Part shown: positions 13,310 to 59,300 of the stretch, piece after piece | How the letters are laid out: every line of letters starts with the position of its first letter | Numbering within the stretch: the stretch's first letter is position 1 | From: Pyropia yezoensis | Taxonomy: Eukaryota > Rhodophyta > Bangiophyceae > Bangiales > Bangiaceae | Assembly: GCA_009829735.1 (NCBI GenBank) | Contig: CM020618.1 | Coordinates: 22,429,346-22,493,345, forward strand | DNA length: 64,000 nucleotides | Reading direction: 5' to 3' | Made by a program: the position numbers and the translations under genes | The notes under the pieces: model-generated | What the model was told of the DNA's origin: nothing | Databases searched by the model: none | Seen by the model: only the letters and a program-made list of their open reading frames with translations

Positions 13310-14896
13310 TCATGTACCGTACGTGAGCACCTGGTCCACCGCCACCCCCGTTGCGGTGAACAGTTCCCCCCCCGGCCACCGCACCGCCACCAGCCGCACG
13401 TCCACGGGGGAGGCGCCCAGCCCAAAGTGCGCCACGTTGAGGAGGCTCGCACTAAACGTGGAGCCGCTCGTGCCGATGCGCCGCCGCTGCAGCCGCCCTG
13501 CCCCGTCGACAATCGTCACCGTCGCGCCCATGTTGCACGCGTTGGTCGACGGCGACCGCCCGACGCGGACGCCAAGGAAGTGGTTGGTCGCCGCCCCGCC
13601 GGTGCGGGCGTTGCGGTAGAGGGACCAGCTGCCGGCGAGGGCGGCAAAGGTGAAGTCCCCATTGGCGACAACCAGGTCCAGCGCCCCGTCGCCGGTCAAG
13701 TCGGCAGCAATGGCATTGTCCCCCCGCCCATTGTCGGGCGTCGTTGTCGCGCCGTGGGTGGTGCTGACCGTAAATGTGCCGTCGCCACCATTGTTCCACA
13801 GGATGTAGTCGGGCTCACGGGGCGCCTCGTGGCGCACCACAAAGATGTCCTCCCACCCGTCATTGTCGAGGTCCCCCACCGTCACGCCCTGATTGTCCCC
13901 CCCCTGCGGGATGCCCGACAGGACACTCACGTCTATGAACCGGCCGGCCCCATCGTTGCGGAGCAGCATGTCCGGCTGGTCACCCCGGGCAATGTACAGG
14001 TCCGTCCAGCCGTCGTTATCGTAGTCGAGCGCCGCAACCGCAAACGCGGGGGCCACCTTGCCCCTGCCAATGCGGTTTAACCACCGGGGTTCTTCCACAA
14101 AGCGCACCTCCCCGCCGCCAGCCGCGGTGTAGATGCGGAAAAAGGGAAACATAATGAGCTCAGGGAGGCCGTCACCATCCAGGTCTGTCACCAGCACCCG
14201 CTCCACCGGGAGGTCGCCCAGGCCCGCCGCGTCCGCCACAGGGGTGTGCCTGCCGCCCACGCCGTTTGCAAAGGCCAGCTGCAGGTTGCCGCCGTCCAAG
14301 ACGGGATCCCCTCCTAGGGTGGTACCCTTAAAGTTGATGACAAGCACGTCTGGAGTGCCGTCGCCGTTGACGTCTGTAAAGCGGGGCGCCCGCCCCCGTC
14401 GTCGTGGCGAGCGCAGGCCAGCAGGGGTAGTCACATTTAAAAACGACCCCCCACGCAGGGACAGCAGCTCCACTGCGGCGGGGAGTTCCCCGTTGGCACC
14501 CCCCCGGGTGAGTAGGACCTCTGGGAGGCCGTCGAGATCGGCGTCACCAACCGCAAGGCCGTGGACGTCTTCAAGAGAGGGGAGCAAGTTCGGGCCGCGG
14601 GTAAACGAGCCGGTGCCGTCATTGGTGTAGTACCACACGAGCTGCGAGTCGTGGTTGGGAAGGATAAGGTCGTACGGGCCGAGGCTATTGGCCAGCGGCG
14701 CCACCACGGGACCCCCGTACGACAGCTGCCGTGTCGTCGGTATGCCTGAAGCGGCGGTAGCGTCAAAAAAGGTGGTGTCTGCCGCCGCCGAGTGGGGGGC
14801 GGTCACCGTCACGACCGCCGCCGCTGCTACCACCATGGCCACCACGGCCGCCACGGGCCGGGGGACCATGGCGGGAGGCCAACCACTGCGCCTCAT
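13310..14896 (-). CDS. Secreted FG-GAP/VCBS repeat protein with C-terminal UnbV/ASPIC domain
   Basis: A 528-residue protein predicted to be secreted or anchored. From the ATG at 14896 it has a basic start (MRRSGWPP), a hydrophobic core (PVAAVVAMVVAAAAVVTVTA) and a likely cleavage near HSAAA; the ATG at 14869 or the one at 15085 could also be used. At least six calcium-loop-like repeats follow (DADLDGLPEV, DVNGDGTPDV, DLDGDGLPEL, DYDNDGWTDL, DLDNDGWEDI, DLTGDGALDL), typical of FG-GAP/VCBS beta-propellers. The last ~75 residues match the UnbV/ASPIC pattern (GATVTIVDG, LLNVAHFGLG, VRWPGGEL), as in bacterial proteins and animal CRTAC1. The function is unknown; calcium-dependent extracellular binding is the usual guess. 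It has no intron. Bacterial origin by transfer is possible but unproven. Confidence 0.87.
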   Translation of the reverse strand: MRRSGWPPAMVPRPVAAVVAMVVAAAAVVTVTAPHSAAADTTFFDATAASGIPTTRQLSYGGPVVAPLANSLGPYDLILPNHDSQLVWYYTNDGTGSFTRGPNLLPSLEDVHGLAVGDADLDGLPEVLLTRGGANGELPAAVELLSLRGGSFLNVTTPAGLRSPRRRGRAPRFTDVNGDGTPDVLVINFKGTTLGGDPVLDGGNLQLAFANGVGGRHTPVADAAGLGDLPVERVLVTDLDGDGLPELIMFPFFRIYTAAGGGEVRFVEEPRWLNRIGRGKVAPAFAVAALDYDNDGWTDLYIARGDQPDMLLRNDGAGRFIDVSVLSGIPQGGDNQGVTVGDLDNDGWEDIFVVRHEAPREPDYILWNNGGDGTFTVSTTHGATTTPDNGRGDNAIAADLTGDGALDLVVANGDFTFAALAGSWSLYRNARTGGAATNHFLGVRVGRSPSTNACNMGATVTIVDGAGRLQRRRIGTSGSTFSASLLNVAHFGLGASPVDVRLVAVRWPGGELFTATGVAVDQVLTYGT

Positions 14897-14932
14897 GCCG
14901 ACAGCCGCACTTGCTTCCCACCGTGTGGGCTT

Positions 14933-14941
14933 GGGGGGGGG
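14933..14941 (-). promoter_or_regulatory. C tract upstream of the FG-GAP gene
   Basis: Nine consecutive C on the sense strand, starting 37 nt upstream of the preferred ATG at 14896. It resembles the longer runs ahead of other genes in this window. The role is inferred. Confidence 0.25.
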
Positions 14942-14944
14942 AGG

Positions 14945-15382
14945 GTGGATGGAAATCATGAATGAGGGGGAAGTACATGGAGGAGTCGGACGGGATGGGA
15001 CAGATGGGCGACGGCAGGGACTGCTGCCAACGGGGTAGTCGAGACAGCACGCTGCGGCGACGGGGCGTGCTCGGGACTGCTGCATCAGCGGACGCGACTT
15101 TTACCTGCTGATGGGCGCAGGCAGCGTCCAATGGCCGTCGGAACGTCGACGCGCGCCTCAGTTGTTGTGTCGAGCGCCACGGGCGGCGGTTCTGGGGATG
15201 GAGTTGCAAGTGAAGCTCTGCCACGGCCCAGCGACCACACTTACTCTCCAGGTGCCCGGAGTCACTGGGACCCCTGACCAGATCGGTGCCAGTCGGTTAC
15301 CAGACGCACGCGAGACAGCATCTCGTCGGCCGAGCGGATCCAGTGGGACGCTTCGTGTCGCCTCTCGAGATAGCTGCCTGTG
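14945..15382. other. Upstream region of the FG-GAP gene, nothing else seen
   Basis: Mixed-composition DNA between the C tract and the left end of the DNA transposon remnant. The frame of the FG-GAP gene stays open to an in-frame ATG at 15085, so part of this may be leader or an alternative N-terminus. Confidence 0.35.
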
Positions 15383-15478
15383 CAGTGGTGCTAAAACCGG
15401 GATCCACCACAAGCCTGTTTCTAGCCGGAAAAGCTTGTGCGCGGATTGTAAAGTGGCCCCCTGAACCCCCCTCCACAC

Positions 15479-15967
15479 CAGGGATGGCAAAAAGGAAACT
15501 TTTATCTCGGCTTTAATTAATTTATAGTATACTTAAACATTTCGATTTCACTATATGAACTATTCATCACATGACCGTACTTAAACAAATCTTGACGACA
15601 TATGTCTGGCATTGAATACCAACTATCGCTGCCGCAACAAACGCTTTTGTCTTCGGCGCGGCTCCTGGCCACGCTTACCGTCGCTATCCGGGATGCACAA
15701 GGCGGTTTTGCATAAGTGCCGTCCCCATCGACGAGGTGACTTGCACGCGTCCAAGCTGAGCTCGCTGAATGACCCGGGTTCCCCCTTTCAAATCCCGGCG
15801 GTGTCCGCCACCCTGATGGTAGAATTGTTCAGATGTGACATCAATTACTCACTCAAGTATTCCATAGATTAATCAAAGGGCCGTTCCTGCTATTTGATTA
15901 ATCTGTAAATTAATAATAAATTAATGAATTTTAGTATAATGTATACAATTTATTGCTGCCACACCTA
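15479..15967. mobile_element. hAT-type MITE, copy 1, inserted in another transposon
   Basis: The 489 bp run from CAGGGATGGCAAAAA to TTGCTGCCACACCTA, giving short terminal inverted repeats of the hAT kind. The flanks CTCCACAC (15471-15478) and CTCGACAC (15968-15975) match at 7 of 8 bases. The intact opposite arm of the host transposon shows the empty site with a single CTCCACAC, which fixes both borders. The interior is AT-rich towards the ends. It is homologous to 44889-45468, sharing AACGCTTTTGTCTTCGGCGC among other stretches. Confidence 0.85.
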
Positions 15968-44812: not shown

Positions 44813-46904
44813 ATGGCGGGCATGGACCTGGCTGACGTCCTCACCCGCTCCCGCGCTATTGAAGCGCGACGGGGAGGGCGCCCCCCCCCAGGGTTGGCAA
44901 AAACGTATCAATTTTTTGTCACGGCTTTGATTAATGTATAGATTAATTAAACATATTTTCATTTTCCATTTTATATGCATTATTCATCAAATGACCGGAC
45001 ATAAACAAATCTTGACGACTTATGTCTGGCATTGTATGTCATCTATCGCTGCCGCAACAAACGCTTTTGTCTTCGGCGCGGCTCCTGGCCACGCTCACCG
45101 TCGCTTTCCGGGATGCACAAGGCGGTTTTGCACAAGCACTGTCCCCCTCGACGAGGTGACTTCCGCGCGTCTGAGCTGAGCTCGCTGACTGACCCGGGTT
45201 CCCCTTTTCAACTCCTGGCGGCGTCCGCCACGCTCCCGACCAGCCGTCAGCCATAGCTGGAGCGGCGCCCATGAAAGGGGCAGCAGGCCGAGTGTTCGCG
45301 TCCACCGGCGCCCGCCCCGTGGGAGGCGCTGCCTCGAGCCGTGGCACTGGACGAAAGGCGAGCGACATCCAGTCGGAGTTAGGGTAGTGTTAGTAGTAAT
45401 AATGTTAGAATTGGTCAGATGTGACATCACTTACGGACCCCCAATACATTTTATTGCTGCCAACCGTGGCCCGTAGGGCCGTGGAGGCGGCGGCAGTGGC
45501 AGCGGCGTCGGTGGCGTCGCGGCGGCCTACCCCGGCGCCCCCGCCGTCGCTACCACCGCTGCGCCGTACCGTTCTGCGGGTGCGACCGCCTCCCTCCCCG
45601 CCGAGGGCATCCCCTCCCTCCACCGCCCGCTTGCAGACCTCGCCCGTGCGTCTGTGCCGGCCGGGTCTAGGGGTGCGGGGGCGCCGGGTGGCGCCGCCGC
45701 CGCGCTGCTGGCCGAGTACGCGGCGGCGGGTGGGGGGGGAGGGGGGCGCCTGGCGGGGAGGCGGGGGGGGGGTGGGCGGGGGGGCAGACGGCATGAGCCT
45801 CGCCGCGTTGGCTCTTAAGGACCAACTACGACCGCCGCCGGCTGGCCGCGACTTGCAACGTGGCGGCGGCGGCGGCGGTGGCGGTGGTGGCGGCGGCGGC
45901 GGCGGGGGCGGCGGTTGGGCGCCCCCCCCCCCCTTTCTGGCTGGGGAGGCGCTGGAGCGCCTCGTCGGCCACGCCCACGAGATGACCGTCCTCGCGGCGG
46001 TGGAGGAGGCGATGGGCGGCGCGGCGGGCGCGTCGATGAACGCCGTCCTTGCAGGCCTCGTCGCCGAGTGGGCCACCACCCGCTCCGGGGTGCTGTCGCT
46101 GGCCGCGACGGGCGCCGCGGGCGGGGGGGTGGTGGCCCTCCGGGGGGCGTCGGCGGGGGGGCTGACTGCCGCCTCCCCCGCCCGTGCTGGCTCGGTGGGG
46201 GCGGGGGGCGGGGGGTCCCCCGCGGGGGCGCCAAGCCCGTTCCGCACCCCTCGACGCCGGACCGACGGCGGGGGTGGCGGTGGTGGTGGTGGGGCGACCG
46301 GGGGGGGTGCTGCGAGCGGGTGGGGGGCCCCTCTGGCGGCGGTTGGCGCGGGGCGGGGCGCCGCGGCCGACGGCGGGCGGGAGGGTGGGGTGGAGCTGGC
46401 CGCCGAGGCGGCCATCCGCCGCACGCTCCGTGGCGGCCGCACGGCGGTGGCGACGGACCTTGCCGCCGCGGCCGCGGACGCGGGCATGCGTACTGTCTTT
46501 GCGGCCCTCGCGGCGGTGACGGGGGAGGAGCCCTCCGCCGCCGCCGCCGCCGCTGCCGCCACCACCGGGGGGGGCCGCCGCCCTACCGCCGCGTCAGCCG
46601 CCGCGGCGGCGGCCGCGGCGGCCGCAGCGGCGGCGGCGGCGGGGCCCGCGGCTGTCCGCGACGCGCGCATCGTGGCGGGCGGCCGCGCCTTCCTCGCCGC
46701 CCAGTTCCTCGACGCCAAGCTGCGGCGGGATATCGGCGCGGCGCCCGCGGCGGCGCGGCGCGGCGCCCGCGGCGGCGCGGCGCGGCGCCCGCGGCGGCGC
46801 GGCGCGGCGGCGCACCGGGTGTCCGCGCGGACGTGTGTGCGTACGTGCGGCTGGTGGTGGGCACCGCGTCGCCCGCGGTGATGTCAGCAGCAGCGGCGGA
46901 TGGG

Positions 46905-46941
<37 letters not shown>

Positions 46942-47639
46942 TGGCTGCCCCGCCCCACCGGCCGCTGCCGCCGGCGCTGACGGCGGGTCCGCTGGTGGAC
47001 GGCGCCCTCCCCCTGTGGGCGGTCGTCTTTTACGCTCTCCGCGCGGGCGCGACGGCCGTCGCGGCTGGCGCGGTCGCCGACGCGGTCGGCGGCGCGGGCC
47101 TCAGCGCGGCGGGCCCCGCGGCGGGCCGCTTTGTCGCCGCCCTTTGTGCGGCGGGCGGCCCCGGCGGCGGGGAGCTGGCGGCGCTCCTGGATGACTACGC
47201 GGCGGTGGTGGCACCGTCGGGGGACCCGTACATGCGCGCCGCCTGGGCGGTCGCGGCGCGGGTGGACGTGGTGGGCGGCGGCGGCGGCGGCGGCGCGCTG
47301 CCGGCGCTTGCCCTCCCCGATGAGGACTATGCGCTGCTCTTTTGTTCCGTCGAGGACTACCTGTGGATGTGCCTGGCGTGCGTGCGGGTGGGCGGGGTGG
47401 ACGCGGCGGTGGGCGCGGCGGCGGCGCCCGCGGCGCTTCGCCTCGACGCGGTGGCGGCCGAGATGGCCGCCGCCGGCGCGGCGCACTTTGACCCGCGCGG
47501 CGACGCGCCCGCCGCCTACGCGGCGGTGCTGGTGCTCGACGGCTCCCTCCCGCCGGCGGTGGACCACCTGGCGGGCAGCGGCCGCACCCGCGACGCGGTG
47601 CACCTGGGGGTGGCGGGCGCCTACCACGGGCTCATCGAC

Positions 47640-47670
<31 letters not shown>

Positions 47671-48756
47671 TGGCGGCGGGGGTTGGCCGCCGCGGGCGCC
47701 GCCGCGCGGCCGCTGACGACCAGCGGCGGCTACGCGGGCCTCATGACGTCCTACGCGGCGGGGCTGCCGTCGCCCGCGTCGGCCGCCCTCTACCTGTGCA
47801 CCATCCCAGACGCGGCGACGCGGACGGCCCGCCTGGCGGCGCTGCTGGCCTCCTCCCCCGCCGCCGCGGCGGCGCTGCTGGCCACCCCGGCGGCGGGCCG
47901 CGGCCGCGGCCGCGGCGGCGGTGGGGCGGGGGCCCCCCCCTTGACCGCCTCGTGCGCGCTGGCGGCGGTGGAGCCGCGCGGCGCCGCCGGCGTCGACGCG
48001 GTCGTTGCCGCGGCGGTGGCGGCCGCTGCCGCCCGTGGCGACGCGGCGGCGGCCGTGTCGCTGGCCGAGGCGGGCCCAACGCCCGCCGACGCCGGGGCGC
48101 ACCACCTGGCGCGGCTGGCGGGGGTGACCCTCCGGCGGGGCGCCCCCGGCCGCGCCGCCGCCACCGCCGCCGCCGCCGCCTACACCCGCCGGTGGCCGCC
48201 GTCTGCGCCGCCCCCGCGGGCGGCGGCGTCGTCCGTGGCGGTGGCCGCCCGGGCGTCCCGGTCGGTCGCGGCGCTGCTGTGCTGGGCCCGGGCGGTGGAC
48301 GCGGCCGCGCCGGTGGGGGCGGGCGGCGGCGGGGATGTTGCCGCCGCGCTCGACGCGGTATGGGCGGCGGGGGTGCTGCCGTTGGCGGTGGCCCCCGCGG
48401 GCGGCGGCGGGGGGGGGGGGGGGGGCGCCGACGGGGCCGCCGGTGGGGGGGGGGGCGCCGGTGGCCGTGGAGGGAGCGCCGGCGGCGGCGGAGGGGGCGC
48501 CGGCGCCGACGCGGTGGCGGCCGGCGCCGAGCGGGTGCGCGTCGGCTGGTGGGCGCCCGAGCTGGCCTCCCGCCTCGGGGAGGTGCTCGTCGCGTGCGCG
48601 GGGTGGCTGGGCGAGTGGGGCGCCTCGGCGGGGGGGGGGCGCCGCCGCACCGCCCGCGACGCGGGGGCGACGCTGGGGCAGTTTGCGGCGCTGGCGGGGG
48701 TGGAGGGGGGGGGGGTGGCGGGCGCCTTCCTGTCCCTCGAGGTGCTCCTTGGGTGA
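44813..48756 (+). CDS. NUP93: Nucleoporin NUP93/Nic96, inner-ring scaffold of the nuclear pore
   Basis: The N-terminus at 44813 (MAGMDLADVLTRSRAIEARR) matches the short helical start of Nup93. After the MITE at 44889-45468, the frame resumes with an Ala/Gly linker to about 45729. A possible 58 bp intron (45730-45787, GT-AG, phase kept) precedes SLAALALKDQL. Family landmarks follow: EALERLVGHAHEMTVLAAVEE and LAGLVAEWATTRS (human LKNEKDNALLSAIEES, MLVEWEQV), VRADVCAYVRLV, PLWAVVFYALRAG, DPYMRAAWAVAARVDV, SVEDYLWMCLACVRV, AHFDPRGDAPAAYAAVLVL, DAVHLGVAGAYHGLI, GYAGLMTSYAA, and an end like the Nup93 C-terminus (FAALAGVEGGGVAGAFLSLEV). The frame changes twice more: within a 22 bp tandem repeat at 46741-46810, and near a G run at about 47680. 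Poly-Gly/Ala insertions are long. Identity is secure; exact exons are not. Confidence 0.9.
44889..45468. mobile_element. hAT-type MITE, copy 2, inside the 5' part of NUP93
   Basis: 580 bp from CAGGGTTGGCAAAAAC to TGCTGCCAACCGTG; the inverted ends read CAGGGTTGGCA and CACGGTTGGCA. It is homologous to the MITE at 15479-15967 over most of its length, with a longer 3' half. It lies between the NUP93 start codons and the rest of that coding region. The expected 8 bp duplication is not apparent (C run on the left, GCCCGTAG on the right). Within its left end is GTATCA, a possible splice donor at 44905. Confidence 0.8.
46741..46806 (+). repeat. 22 bp tandem repeat, three units, in NUP93
   Basis: The word GCGCCCGCGGCGGCGCGGCG recurs at 46741, 46763 and 46785, a period of 22 bp, which is not a multiple of three. 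The reading frame supported by family matches differs on the two sides by the amount that two surplus units, or one missing unit, would produce. Confidence 0.7.
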
Positions 48757-49530: not shown

Positions 49531-51690
49531 TCAGTGCGAGCCCCCCGGCGCCAGCTTGCACGTCACCCGCGCCTGCTCCACCAGCAGCGTCGCGTACAAG
49601 GCGCCGCCGGTCGCCTGCACCGCCACCGGCGCCGGGCGCCCACCGTCGGCGGTGGCGGCCATGGCCAGCTCCCCGAGCGTGCACCGCAGGCCATTCCACA
49701 CCGCCACCACCGCGCCGCCCACCACCTCCACCGTCGCCCGGCCGAGGCCACACGTTGCCGGCGGGGGGGGGGGGACGCGATGGCCCGACGGCTTCTCCGG
49801 CGCCGGCTCCCCGTGCGCAGGCGCGCCGTGAGCGGGCTCCCCATGCGCAGGCGCACCGTGAGCGGGCTCCTTCTTGTGCGCCGGCTCCCCGTGCGCCGGC
49901 GTGCCGCGCGCGGGCTCCTTCTTCTGCGCCGGCTCCCCTTGGGCGGGCGCACCGTGCGCCGGCTCCTTGTGCGCCGGCTCCCCGTGGGCGGGCGCCCCAT
50001 GCGCCGGCTCCCCGTGCGCAGGCGCTCCGTGCGCCGGCTCCCCGTGGGCGGGCGTGCCGTGAGCGGGCCCCTTGTGCGCCGGCTCCCCGACGGAGGGCTC
50101 CTTCTTGTGCGCCGGCTCCTTATGCGCAGGCTCCCCGTGGGCGGGCGTGCCGTGCGCCGGCTCCTTGTGCACGGGCTCCCCGTGCGCAGGCGCACCGTGA
50201 GCGGGCTCCTTGTGCGCCGGCTCCCCGTGGGCGGGCGCGCCATGCGCCGGCTCCCCGTGCGCCGGCGCACCGTGCGCCGGCTCCTTGTGAGCAGGCTCCC
50301 CGTGAGCGGGCGCACCGTGCGCGGGATCCTTCTTGTGCGCCGGCTCCCCGTGGGCGGGCGCGCCATGCACCGGCGAGCCGTGGGCGGGCGCAACGTGTGC
50401 CGGCTGCGTGTGGGCGGGCGCGCCGTGGGCTGGCCCCTTGTGCGACGGCTCCGCGTAGGCGGGCGCCCCATCGTGGCCCGGCATGGCCGCGGGTAGCGGC
50501 ACAAACGGCGTCAGCAGCACCGGCGCGTGCGCCGGCGCCGGCGCCTCATGCGCGGGCGCCTCACCGTGGGCGGGCGTACCGTGGGCAGGCGCCCCGTGAG
50601 CGGGCGCTTCGTGCTCAGGAGTGCCGTGGGCGGGCGCCTCGTGCGACGGCGCGCCGTGGGCGGGTGCCTCGTGCGATGGCGGCCCGTGGGCGGGTGCCTC
50701 ACCGTGGGCAGGCGTGCCGTGCAAAGGCGCACCGTGGGCAGGCGCTTCGTGCTCAGGCGTGCCGTGGGCGGGCGCCTCGTGCGCCGGCGCCCCGTGCACG
50801 GGCGCCTCATGCGCCGGCGCCCCGTGGACGGGCGCCTCGTGCGCTGGCGCGCCGTGAGCGGGTGCCTGGTGCTCGGGCGTGCCGTGGGCGGGCGCCTCGT
50901 GCGCCGGCGCACCGTGCGCGGGCGCTTCACCGTGGGCGGGCGCCCCGTGAGCTGGCGCCTCATGCGCCGGAGCGCCGTGGGCGGGCGCTTCCTTGTGACC
51001 CGGGACCCCGTGAGCGGGCGCCCCGCCGGAGACTGGCGTCCACGGCGCCGGCTCCCCGTGCGGCGGCGCACCGTGCAACGGCTCCCCGTGGGCGGGCGCC
51101 GCGTGGTGACCCGGCACCCCGGTCGCCGGCCCCCCGTGTAACGGCGCCCCGTGCGGGGGCGCCGGCTCCCCGCCGTGGACGGGCGCCGGCTCCCCGCCGT
51201 AGACGGGCGCGGGCTCCCCACCATGGGCAGGCGCGGGCTCTCCGCCATGGGCAGGCACAGGCTCCTCGCCGTGGACCGGCGCCGGCTCGCCGCCGTGGAC
51301 GGGCGCCGGCTCGCGGCCGTGAACGGGCGCCGGCTCGCCGCCGTGGACCGGCGCCGGCTCTCCACCATGAACGGGGGCCGGCTCCCCACCATGAACGGGG
51401 GCCGGATCCCCGCCGTGGACGGGCGCGGGCTTCCCGCCGTGTACGGGCGCGGGCTCTCCGCCGTGGACGGGCGCCGGCTCCCCGCCGTGGGCAGGCGCGG
51501 GCTCCCCACCATGGACAGGCGCCGGCGGCGCGTGCTCGGGCGCCCCCCCATGGACGGGGGGCACCCCGCCGGCGGGCGCGCCCGGCGGCGAACAGGGCGC
51601 TGCCGGCACCGGCACGTGCTGCACCACCGCCGCAGAGGCGGAGGAGGCCAGCGCCAGCGCCGCCACGACGGCCACGGTGGTAGTCTTCAT
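49531..51690 (-). CDS. Secreted His-Gly-Pro repeat protein, 719 residues
   Basis: The ATG at 51690 starts a typical signal peptide (MKTTTVAVVAALALASSA, cleavage near SASA). About residues 40-180 are octapeptides of the type PAPVHGGE. The middle and later parts are pentapeptides of the type PAHG(A/E) with variants PAHKE, PVHGA and PSHEA, so a histidine comes every five to eight residues for more than 500 residues. The last ~85 residues form a compact non-repetitive domain with two cysteines (CGLGRATVEVVGGAVVAVWN, CTLGELAMAATADGG) and a third near the end. No membrane segment or lipid anchor is seen. It is probably an extracellular-matrix, wall or metal-binding protein; I know no named family. 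The sense-strand C tract at 51747-51734 lies 44 nt upstream of the ATG. Antisense frames are long only because of the repeats. Confidence 0.82.
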   Translation of the reverse strand: MKTTTVAVVAALALASSASAAVVQHVPVPAAPCSPPGAPAGGVPPVHGGAPEHAPPAPVHGGEPAPAHGGEPAPVHGGEPAPVHGGKPAPVHGGDPAPVHGGEPAPVHGGEPAPVHGGEPAPVHGREPAPVHGGEPAPVHGEEPVPAHGGEPAPAHGGEPAPVYGGEPAPVHGGEPAPPHGAPLHGGPATGVPGHHAAPAHGEPLHGAPPHGEPAPWTPVSGGAPAHGVPGHKEAPAHGAPAHEAPAHGAPAHGEAPAHGAPAHEAPAHGTPEHQAPAHGAPAHEAPVHGAPAHEAPVHGAPAHEAPAHGTPEHEAPAHGAPLHGTPAHGEAPAHGPPSHEAPAHGAPSHEAPAHGTPEHEAPAHGAPAHGTPAHGEAPAHEAPAPAHAPVLLTPFVPLPAAMPGHDGAPAYAEPSHKGPAHGAPAHTQPAHVAPAHGSPVHGAPAHGEPAHKKDPAHGAPAHGEPAHKEPAHGAPAHGEPAHGAPAHGEPAHKEPAHGAPAHGEPVHKEPAHGTPAHGEPAHKEPAHKKEPSVGEPAHKGPAHGTPAHGEPAHGAPAHGEPAHGAPAHGEPAHKEPAHGAPAQGEPAQKKEPARGTPAHGEPAHKKEPAHGAPAHGEPAHGAPAHGEPAPEKPSGHRVPPPPPATCGLGRATVEVVGGAVVAVWNGLRCTLGELAMAATADGGRPAPVAVQATGGALYATLLVEQARVTCKLAPGGSH

Positions 51691-51733
51691 CTTTGCGGCG
51701 TACCGGGCGCGAGGGGGTGCGCGCAAAGGAGCT

Positions 51734-51747
51734 GGGGGGGGGGGGGG
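51734..51747 (-). promoter_or_regulatory. 14-nt C tract in the leader of the secreted repeat protein
   Basis: Fourteen G on the plus strand, hence 14 C in the sense strand, starting 44 nt upstream of the ATG at 51690. Placement is close to that of the SNARE C tract. Confidence 0.3.
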
Positions 51748-53202
51748 TGAGGAAGGAAGAGAGCAGACGCTGGTGGGCGGGGGCGGCAACCTCGACGGCC
51801 GATGCCGGCTGGGGCAAACGGCGTCGGCTGGGGGGCAGAAGGATGAGGGAAGGAGGCGGGCAGCTACGGAGAGCACACTTGGGGGAGAGAGTGGGCGGGG
51901 AAGCTGGCTTTGTCGCTGCGGGATAGGCTGGTAGCGGCCGGTGCTGGGGACTTTTGTACCCTACGGCGCGGCCGGCGGGTCGGCCGGCGGGTGCTGCCGA
52001 CGCTGCCGCCGCCGCCGCCGCCGCCTTGCGGCCGCTGCCGCCCCCAGACTGCGGCGTGGCCGGCCAGGCGCTCAGCGGCCAACGCGCACCCGGCGCGCGA
52101 GCGCGTGGCGGCAGAGGGGGAGGCGGCTGGCCACGGCGACGCGCCGCCCCCTTCCCCCCCCCCCCCCCGCCCCCCCTGTCGTCCCCTGCTCTCTCACTGC
52201 GGCGCCGCCGACGACGGGGCGTTTTGCGTAGCGGCGGCGGCCACCGCCGGCGTGACGGCGGGCCTGACCGTCGGCCCAGCATGGGAGGACGCTGAACGGC
52301 ACGGCCGGCCGCCGCGGGAGCGTGACAGAGCGGGTGAGGGGGGAGAGCGGGGTGGCGGGGCGGCGGGGGGACGGACGGAGGGAACGGCAGCCGCCTAGGG
52401 ACACGCGCGGCCAACGACGCAACCACGATCGGGGCTCTTCCCTGAAGGGGGGGGGGGGCGGGATTGCCTACGCTCCTCGCCCTGGAGGCCGCCACCCCCG
52501 ACGGGCGGGCGCTGGTTGTGTGGCGGGTGTGGCGGCGCACGCGCGGGCCCCTGTTGGACCTCCCACGCCCCCCCCTCGCCCTTCCCCTTTGCACAGCACC
52601 GCCTGGGGGCGACCAGTCCGGGGAGGGAGGCCCGATGCCACCCTGCCCCCCCCCCCCCTCCCCCCACAGACGGCGGCAGCCAGCCCCACACCCGTCGCCT
52701 CCCCCGCCGGCGTGGCCACAAGCATCCCAATGCTGTGGGCGGCAGCGTGCCAACGCTGTGGGGCGGCGGCCAGCGCTACGGCGGGGGGAGTTACGCGCGC
52801 CGCCTACATTTCTATCTACGGCGAGCGCCCGCACCGACCGCAGCCCACCTCCCTTAGCCAGCCGCCAGCCCCGTCCCAGCCCCCCCCGAAAGAGGCCCGC
52901 CTGGCGGCATCCTCCGGCAGGTGACCATCCCGTCCTCCCCATGTCCCCGCGAGCGCCGGCCTGCCCTGCCACCACGCCTGCTGGCTCGCCTGCCGCCGCC
53001 CCAAGCTGTGGAAGACAGCACGCCCGCTACGACAGCGCCGCGCGGCCGCCGCCGACGTGGGCGTGACGTTGACGTTGGCGGCGGGACACAGCCGCCCCCG
53101 TCAGTGGTGGGCAACCGGGGCAGGTCCCCTCCCCGAAAGGAACGCCCATCGTCGGCAGGATATGCTGTTTCACGGTGCAGCCTCGAGGGGTTTGCGGCGT
53201 AC
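51748..53202. other. GC-rich region without a supported gene
   Basis: Open frames cross this stretch on both strands because stop codons are rare at this composition. Pieces such as LLALEAATPDGRALVVWRVW (plus, near 52468-52525) look protein-like, but neighbouring sequence in that frame does not, and no splice sites connect them. Possible promoter of the secreted protein at the left end. Confidence 0.35.
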
Positions 53203-56304: not shown

Positions 56305-59300
56305 CTAAGAAGCAAATGCATTGACGAAGAAGCGTCGCTGGTGGAGGTCACTTGCATCAATCGGGTGCGTTGTCGGAAAGTCGATGAGGCCGTTCCGCGT
56401 CACCCAATCGTCCCAGTCGAGCTCAACACAGAGCACCTTCGTATTGGCACTCAAATCAATGGCTTCAAGGTCTGCCTCAGTACAACCCTGCTGATGAACC
56501 CAACGCAGCCGGGTGCACCCATAGGCAGAAAAAGGGCAGTCCGGTACTGCAGTTGTTGCTTCTGCGCGCTCGACGACCACAGTTCTGCGGACCGACCCGT
56601 TCAGGCTCACCACCAAGACACGGGCTCGTCCGTATCGCTCCGAGCCGTCGGACGCCCGGTAGTTCACCCAGTCAAACCAAGGACGGCCCTTGAGATTGGC
56701 TGTCGCCCATAAAGTCGACCGACGTCCGTCCGCCTTTCGCGGCACCTCCTCCGAGAGCCACACACCGGACTGCAAGACGACACAATCAGATGCATCACAT
56801 TGCAATGCGTTGCAGAGCTTAGGCAGGCTTAGATCAACCGCGAGGTCACCAGCTGAGCACGGCCTGCCGCGTGTCCTTACCCGCCTGCGCCGGTTTCCCT
56901 CCCGCCTGACTGCTTTTTGCTCCGCCTCCAAAGGCGAGATGAGGGTCGATATCTGCTCAGCCAACACCATCTGTAGCGCTGCATGTCCGCGGTTCTTGTT
57001 GGTGAGCTGGAAGGCCCGCTTCACATACTTATGCAGCGCCTCGTTCGCGCCGGTGTTGCCGTCAATCACACTCGCGCGCAACAAGAACTCATCTTTGAGA
57101 TGAGATACAGTGCGATGCACCTTGCTCGTGTTGGTCTCGCCAAACAGCTCGTGGAAGTCATTCTCAACCCAATCTGAAAACCACTCGCACAGGTCCTTGG
57201 CATCGCGCCACGTCTTCGCCCGCGGATCGAAGAAGTCCCTGAGCAGCGCCGCCAGCTCACAGATGCTCCATGTCAATATCCCATAGAATCGACGACCGGG
57301 CGCACCTCGCCCAAACAAGCCTGCAACCGCAAACGGCAGGAAATGCACAGCGTCGCGGTGCTCCTTTCCTTTCAGCGTGGCTTGCAACACACCCGGCTTA
57401 ATGAAGTAGCCGGGGGCCACAGAGGGGACGTGATTGGTGCGGCACGCGAAGCGGAACCGCTTGTTAGCGTGACGTATCGACTCGGTGTCTGTCCCATGGA
57501 GGAGAAGTCCCTGTCGTGCAGTCGCCTTCGCGTAGTTGTACACGCCCTTTGTCAGATCCCGACAGATACCAAGATCGATCACCTGGCGAACGAGACGACC
57601 AGGCCATAGCAAAGAGTGCACTGCGGTGGGACGTCTGTCTCGTCACGTACATGATTAGTAAGTGGCAAGAACATACAGGGAATGACAAACATACACAGTG
57701 ACCTCGTACGGAAGACAGCGACATGCAGCGACATACAATCAACAACAGCACACTACCCACACAAACATAAACGAAATGGTAAACGTACATGCAGGCGGTC
57801 GAATCCGATTATTTTGTAGAGCAGAAGACACCCGGAGCCCAGACCCGCCCAGGCTGCCAGTGCAGGTACGATACAGTGGATACTATACTTCATCTCCATT
57901 GCATCAATCACGACACCCGCACCATAGGACCCTCTCATTCGAGCTCCCTTGAGTTGCTTGCCCACCATCTTCAACACGTTGCGCTGCTTGTGTGGCACAC
58001 TCGGCCGACGACCACAGCTGCTTAAAGGAGCCATACAAGGTGTACAGCTGAAGGCCGTACCGTGCCTCTTCAGACACACAATGTCTCGTTCCTCAGCCTG
58101 ATCACTGGCATACAGTACGACGCGAGGCGATACAATGCCTTGCGTACCGTCCAGCATGGTAACTGCAACGCCGAAGTGACTCGCACGCATAAGGTCGCCA
58201 AAGGCCAGGTTGAGCGTGTGCTGCAACACCTGCACACGCGCTGCAGCGGCGTTGGATGCCGAGCACTTCTGGAAGTCTGCCCACACCTGTGGAACATATG
58301 CCACAGTCACCCAAACAGGCACACGCGACAACAAGTTCATAATCCTCATTCTTATCAGGTAAGCAGACACACCTGTGGAGAGGCATGGTGGTGACCAAAT
58401 ATGCGGACACGATGTCAGTACGGTACACATCGTGCAACGCAACAAGATACAACAAAATGCAAGTCGATGCAACACCTCCACAATACAAGGCGACGCACAT
58501 ACGTATCAACGCAACGCTGACGAAGCTGTGGCGCCACATACTGCAGAATGTACCCAATGGTCGCCAAAGATGGCAAGTGGCATGTCTTACCTCCAGAGGT
58601 GGTCACGACGGTACCGTCCGAGTAAAGAGCCAAGGCCAACATGAGCGCACCCATGCCGAGAACTTTGAGCACATCGGCTCTCTGGGCCCCGTACGCTTTC
58701 CCATCGAAGCAGTCACGTAACACGTCGTCGTTCTGCATCGGTGAAAGCCGCGGCTCGCCGCACTCGTCGAGTTCAGGAGTGCAAGCGCGGCAACCTCTTT
58801 CAACCCGAGGACTCTCGACATTGCTTGGGTCGCCTTGCAACACACTGCCTTTGCTTGTATCACAGTTGGGTCGGTCGTAGCGCACACCCTCTCGACAGTT
58901 GCAGGTACCACCTCCACGCTCCCAACGAATAACTGGTGCCGAGGCGACTGCCTTCATGACCTCCGCCATGCCACTGCGGAAGATGATACGCTGCGGTCCA
59001 AGCACGGTAGGAGCGTCGGCCTCCTTCCATCCAAGCGACTGCAACAGTCGCTTCTTCTACTTCTGAACAGCCTCTTTGATGGCGGTTGGAGACTTGAAGG
59101 CGTCCTTGATGGGTCTGGTAGTCGAGCCGGTCCCGTCTTCGACCCGTCGACAAAGGCGATAGAGCCGGGCGACCTCACCCTTCGACAAACCAGTGCCACC
59201 AGACGTACAAACGTAGAACAAGAACTGTCTCGTTGCAGGAGACCTAAATGCAGACACGTGCGTGTGGGATGAAGCAAACGTTGCAGGGTGATACACGGAG

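Follow-up and report, generated by a model that had tools for sequence, protein, structure and literature searches.

What becomes of a nuclear-pore scaffold gene when a transposable element lies between its likely start codon and the rest of its coding sequence? The question is raised by a NUP93 gene in the window (the whole stretch of 64,000 nucleotides analysed here), which ranges in GC content from 55 to 83% (2-kb windows) and holds long uninterrupted open reading frames (ORFs) as well as copia- and gypsy-type pieces. The GC content and long ORFs fit a Bangiales red alga: passages of published work give 64-68% GC for Bangiales (Pyropia, Porphyra; PMC7423979) and, for P. yezoensis, 63.6% GC, a mean intron of ~300 bp and ~60% of validated genes without introns (PMC3594237).

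The gene downstream of the element is NUP93, as an earlier sequence-only reading of this DNA had proposed. The piece 46842-47700 (+), one of five submitted to Pfam, matched Nic96 (PF04097; E=1.7e-19, score 70.1 bits, cut-off 34.2), and phmmer matched Arabidopsis NUP93A (E=3.5e-8). The four other pieces (45477-45818, 45790-46881, 47683-48753 and 44813-44938) matched no Pfam family, and a phmmer search with 45790-46878 gave glycine-rich top matches, with NUP93 absent among the 60 chains listed. Pattern searches for NUP93 relatives in genome and viral contig collections returned 332 and 34 matches, respectively, of which tblastn confirmed none. Codon usage across 45477-48756 follows the coding frame through the order 0, 1, 0, 1; because the training set included NUP93 pieces, this signal serves to locate the frame changes only. 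Within the four segments between the frame breaks, which were chosen by hand, the coding frame contains 0 stops in 1033 codons, and the other two forward frames contain 11 in 1030 and 5 in 1029. In a neutral simulation limited to substitutions (GC-rich model, 300 runs per setting), zero stops occurred at a frequency of 0.67 at 1% divergence, 0.07 at 7.5% and 0.013 at 15%; on this model, a long-dead NUP93 copy should show stops by now. Convergent with NUP93 is an ORF of 809 aa (49531-51960, minus), which from residue 91 onward looks like a secreted protein (MKTTTVAVVAALALASSASA...) and contains long repeats of the HGAPAHGEPAHKEP type.

The first ~84 codons of the downstream frame (45477-45728) contain no in-frame ATG and so need a start further upstream. 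One candidate, the ATG at 44813, opens MAGMDLADVLTRSRAIEA, and in gapless alignment to the N-termini of human, Xenopus and Arabidopsis NUP93 its N-terminal 19-mer ranks fifth, tied with one other, among the window's 1036 open 19-mers that start with ATG. Scores as high are reached by 297 of 89856 open 19-mers with any start (shuffle p 0.0135). The likeness to a NUP93 N-terminus noted in the earlier reading has this rank in its favour, but phmmer found no NUP93 chain when the joined N-terminus was searched against the PDB; overall the likeness is weak and suggestive, and an exon here is plausible. Its frame, which continues into the element and meets a stop at 44939-44941, is uncertain because a C9 run precedes the element. 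On the other side, coding had been said to resume within ~30 nt of the element, and an open frame does run from 45477, but the first stretch that can be aligned to NUP93 (IPSLHRPLADLA, from 45609) begins ~140 nt beyond the element; by eye it resembles LPHVERNLQEIQ in human and FPPLQRNLDQLE in Arabidopsis NUP93.

Transcription could instead start to the right of the element, with translation from the ATG at 45793 (MSLAALALKDQL) giving a NUP93 that lacks its first helix and with the element acting as promoter or 5' UTR. That ATG is in frame with segment 45790-46737, so that the first frame break would call for no frame change; the region it leaves untranslated, 45477-45729, nevertheless has coding-like codon usage in frame 0 (by a training set that included other NUP93 segments) and carries the NUP93-like IPSLHRPLADLA and LLA stretches aligned by eye. 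We regard such downstream initiation as rather improbable. The element splits the gene, and the upstream ATG is usable only if the element is bypassed.

The element is non-autonomous, about 570-580 bp long (its right end is possibly 9 bp shorter than the inverted ends indicate) and plausibly a hAT MITE. Its ends, CCAGGGTTGGCA and TGCCAACCGTGG (44888-44899 and 45458-45469, with one base added on each side), are complementary at 11 of 12 positions. Terminal inverted repeats of hAT MITEs end in the (C/T)A(A/G)NG type, and we take the CAGGGTTGGCA type seen here to be of that kind. The ends alone prove nothing, because the same 1-kb region holds 50 inverted pairs, 17 of them ranked ahead of the element's own; and CAGGGTTGGC, with ≤1 mismatch allowed, is present at 9 places in the window, where 9.19 would be expected. 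What makes the element a repeat is a second copy that matches it from the left end. The flanks of the NUP93 copy (CCCCCCCC and GCCCGTAG) show no target-site duplication (TSD), with no match of at least 6 bp at ≤1 mismatch in any of the shifts tried. Among 30 of the 148 window ORFs of at least 150 aa, Pfam found neither a hAT transposase nor an autonomous partner. The proposal of a hAT-type MITE between the start codon and the body of NUP93 therefore holds for the repeat and its position, but the family assignment lacks a TSD at this copy and a transposase among the ORFs searched. Elsewhere in the window, 57756-58505 (minus) has a weak match to a Plavaka transposase (23.5 bits, under the Pfam cut-off of 26.3).

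Two copies of the element occur in the 64 kb window. The second, which lies outside recognised coding sequence, ~380 bp away from an FG-GAP/ASPIC-UnbV ORF (13313-15100, minus) on its 5' side, matches the NUP93 copy over 15478-15814 with 85.0% identity in 347 alignment columns (E=1e-109), and over an additional 33-bp block at 91%; the alignment begins at the left ends of both. Its flanks, CTCCACAC and CTCGACAC, form a TSD-like repeat (7/8), or alternatively a perfect 7-bp repeat that would place the right end 9 bp earlier, and its ends, CAGGGATGGCA and TAGGTGTGGCA, are complementary at 8 of 11 positions. Large internal blocks differ between the two copies, and a block of 53 bp (45043-45095 and 15623-15675) is identical in both despite the 15% difference over the aligned part, a difference that sets at best a loose upper bound on the age of insertion. 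An exact 30-mer common to both copies had 0 hits in the genome collection and 0 in the viral contig collection. A tRNA-derived part, considered for a T-arm-like stretch within the element, gained no support from ARAGORN or Rfam: ARAGORN and Rfam over the window, and Rfam over 44880-45480, returned no hits.

Table 1. Positions of the NUP93 segments, the element copies, the frame breaks and the candidate splice signals in the window.
Feature	Position	Strand	Basis
Second element copy, 489 bp	15479..15967	+	similarity to NUP93 copy, TSD-like flanks
Putative NUP93 exon 1 (MAGMDLADVLTRSRAIEARRGGRPP..)	44813..44888	+	ORF; N-terminus likeness score
Element, non-autonomous, probably hAT-like MITE, 580 bp (by inverted ends)	44889..45468	.	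inverted ends, second copy
Candidate donor GTATCA of the earlier reading, phase 2	44905..44910	+	3/7 consensus matches
Other GTs in left end of element	44893, 44918, 44936	+	GT listing
Branch-point-like CTTAC	45430..45434	+	yUnAy match; second, weaker TTTAT at 45450
First AG after branch-like site (TAG), phase 0	45474..45476	+	AG listing
Candidate CAG acceptors of the earlier reading, ending 45496 and 45502, phase 2	45494..45502	+	frame check
NUP93 coding, frame 0 (..EGIPSLHRPLADLARAS..LLAEYAAA)	45477..45729	+	ORF, codon usage, stop count
Frame break 1, G-rich 23-bp tandem repeat	45722..45787 (break region to about 45790)	+	repeat scan
NUP93 coding, frame 1	45790..46737	+	ORF, codon usage
Frame break 2, perfect 22-bp tandem array, 3.5 copies	46734..46809 (break region to 46840)	+	repeat scan
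NUP93 coding, frame 0, Nic96 domain core	46842..47670	+	Pfam, phmmer, codon usage
Frame break 3, near G5 run	about 47670-47690	+	codon usage
NUP93 coding, frame 1, up to stop codon	47683..48756	+	ORF, codon usage

Besides the element, the gene is interrupted by three frame breaks (Table 1). Without 45730-45787 (GT...CAG, 58 bp, G-rich) the frame is continuous across the first and reads LLAEYAAADGMSLAALALKDQL, which resembles the Arabidopsis NUP93 stretch LLAREGINAEQLARDLKSF; these 58 bp are possibly a mini-intron or a tandem-repeat expansion. At the second break, two copies of the array (44 nt) explain the frame change. All three fall in G/C-rich repeats, a kind of sequence prone to assembly error, and could have arisen in that way; if they are real, the copy would be dead. 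The three further breaks thus make a defective copy or an assembly error a serious rival to the reading in which the element is spliced out. That this is a defective NUP93 copy or allele, no longer used while a working copy exists elsewhere, would account for the gene's four lesions, among them the perfect 22-bp array of 3.5 copies. Three further long ORFs in the window (5634, 1788 and 2430 bp) are intact, although they were chosen for their openness. We nevertheless consider it unlikely, given the lack of stops across 1033 codons in homologous frames and the placing of the breaks in error-prone G/C-rich repeats; homopolymer runs of at least 6 number 18 in NUP93 (3277 bp) and 8, 8 and 7 in the three other ORFs. 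Far less probable is an artefact at the element itself, either misjoined at this place by the assembly or present on a hemizygous allele that most cells lack: a TSD-less NUP93 copy, membership in a repeat family and G/C-rich flanks are all compatible with such an error, but both element ends are present, with an open frame of the expected gene on either side.

The reading that we favour, tentatively and at somewhat less than even chance, is insertion of a non-autonomous and probably hAT-type element within or next to the first NUP93 codons, with splicing as the most likely way for the pre-mRNA to get past it. Splicing is favoured because the four coding segments are free of stops, and we infer the intron role solely from the requirement for a functional gene. 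A GT of the A+T-rich left end, no more than 50 nt from the terminus, would serve as 5' splice site. The 3' splice site would be provided by an AG of the right flank, namely the TAG at 45474-45476 if the first is used and otherwise the CAG ending at 45496 or at 45502; a few element codons would then remain in the mRNA. GC content falls to 31% in the left 152 bp of the element, from 74% and 81% in the flanks, an intron-like contrast. Unless removed, the TAG at 45474-45476 is an in-frame stop of the downstream frame. Worked through by hand, precise excision of the element with no TSD removed keeps the frame and leaves this TAG in it, and precise excision together with an 8-bp TSD is out of frame; the C9 run may alter either outcome. 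An insertion into an older intron is a less likely arrangement, as there is no GT across 44838-44892.

The donor GTATCA at 44905, paired with either CAG acceptor (ending 45496 or 45502), does keep the frame as had been claimed, and ten GT-AG combinations keep both the frame and the downstream motif. Frame-keeping pairs carry no weight, however, because at least one arose in 440 of 500 dinucleotide shuffles of the element (observed 6, mean 4.0), and at least one GTR...YAG pair arose in 290 of 500 (observed 3, mean 1.3). Donors in this test could lie anywhere between 60 nt downstream of the ATG and 80 nt inside the element, and acceptors between 60 nt upstream of the element's end and 36 nt downstream of it. 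Compared with the splice donor consensus MAG/GTRAGT, the five candidate GTs score 1, 3, 3, 1 and 3 of 7, and 37.5% of the window's 3588 GTs score at least 3 of 7. GTATCA, moreover, has no counterpart in the second copy, where it falls in a 4-bp gap. The idea of the MITE as an intron accordingly keeps its one argument, that a working gene must bypass the element, but loses the particular sites named for it, which are at chance level and in the case of GTATCA missing from the other copy. On the acceptor side, no AG lies between the branch-like CTTAC and 45475-45476, and the last base of that AG is 8 nt beyond the right inverted end, at the expected limit of a target duplication; the acceptor at 45474-45476 is in frame with donors at 44837, 44918 and 44936 and out of frame with that at 44905. 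We dropped the arrangement of a branch site followed by the first AG as evidence of splicing, since 173 of 1000 shuffles of 45401-45510 showed a branch site with a first YAG; this result makes the 45476 acceptor a less preferred choice and leaves the likelihood of splicing itself as it was.

A wider version of splicing would have a hAT-type MITE family starting to serve as introns in a GC-rich alga that has few of them, with NUP93 as a fixed example and with the A+T-rich ends reading as intron against very GC-rich exons. We hold this to be very unlikely.

Splicing of Ds out of exons is known, and like the maize Ds and Ds1 elements the one described here is a short, probably hAT element in a gene, with candidate donors at element positions 5, 17, 30 and 48. 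A study of maize Ds reports that these hAT elements supply splice donors near their ends (PMC5432752). It concerns exonization from insertions in introns, with two Ds donors tested by RT-PCR (PMC5432752), whereas the NUP93 element is likened to Ds by description and from DNA only. As far as size and termini go, the element may resemble hAT-type MITE families in its copies of 489 and 580 bp, in the 8-bp TSD-like repeat (7/8) at the second copy and in a terminal inverted repeat presumably of the CAGGGTTGGCA kind; it differs from them in that its copies are distinguished by large internal blocks and in having no autonomous partner among the 30 of 148 ORFs searched.

Introners offer a second comparison. 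They are described in PMC9860276 as DNA-transposon-derived introns in many eukaryotes, with terminal inverted repeats in 72 of 177 families and from 5 to >2,000 copies per genome present as introns, and an introner may itself bring one splice site, the second being supplied by the target-site duplication or by the exon. The TAG at 45474-45476 would be similar in this respect, ending at the expected end of a target duplication, where introners can take splice sites. The two window copies, by contrast, do not show the introner trait of several genes with a common splice site: there are two in 64 kb, one of them does not lie in a recognised coding exon, and the candidate donor is not common to both. 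The main text of PMC9860276 contains none of the words red alga, Rhodophyt and Porphyra, and a red-algal MITE intron is named in none of the titles listed on introners, red-algal genomes and MITE/Ds splicing. Should RNA show no splicing, the locus would be a commonplace insertion into a gene copy that is damaged or misassembled. Should RNA show splicing, it would represent a single-locus case of a DNA transposon turned intron, in a scaffold gene of the nuclear pore and in a genome that looks intron-poor, with implications for intron gain outside the known introner lineages; if confirmed, it would join a known kind, that of transposon-supplied splice sites and introners, rather than constitute a new one.
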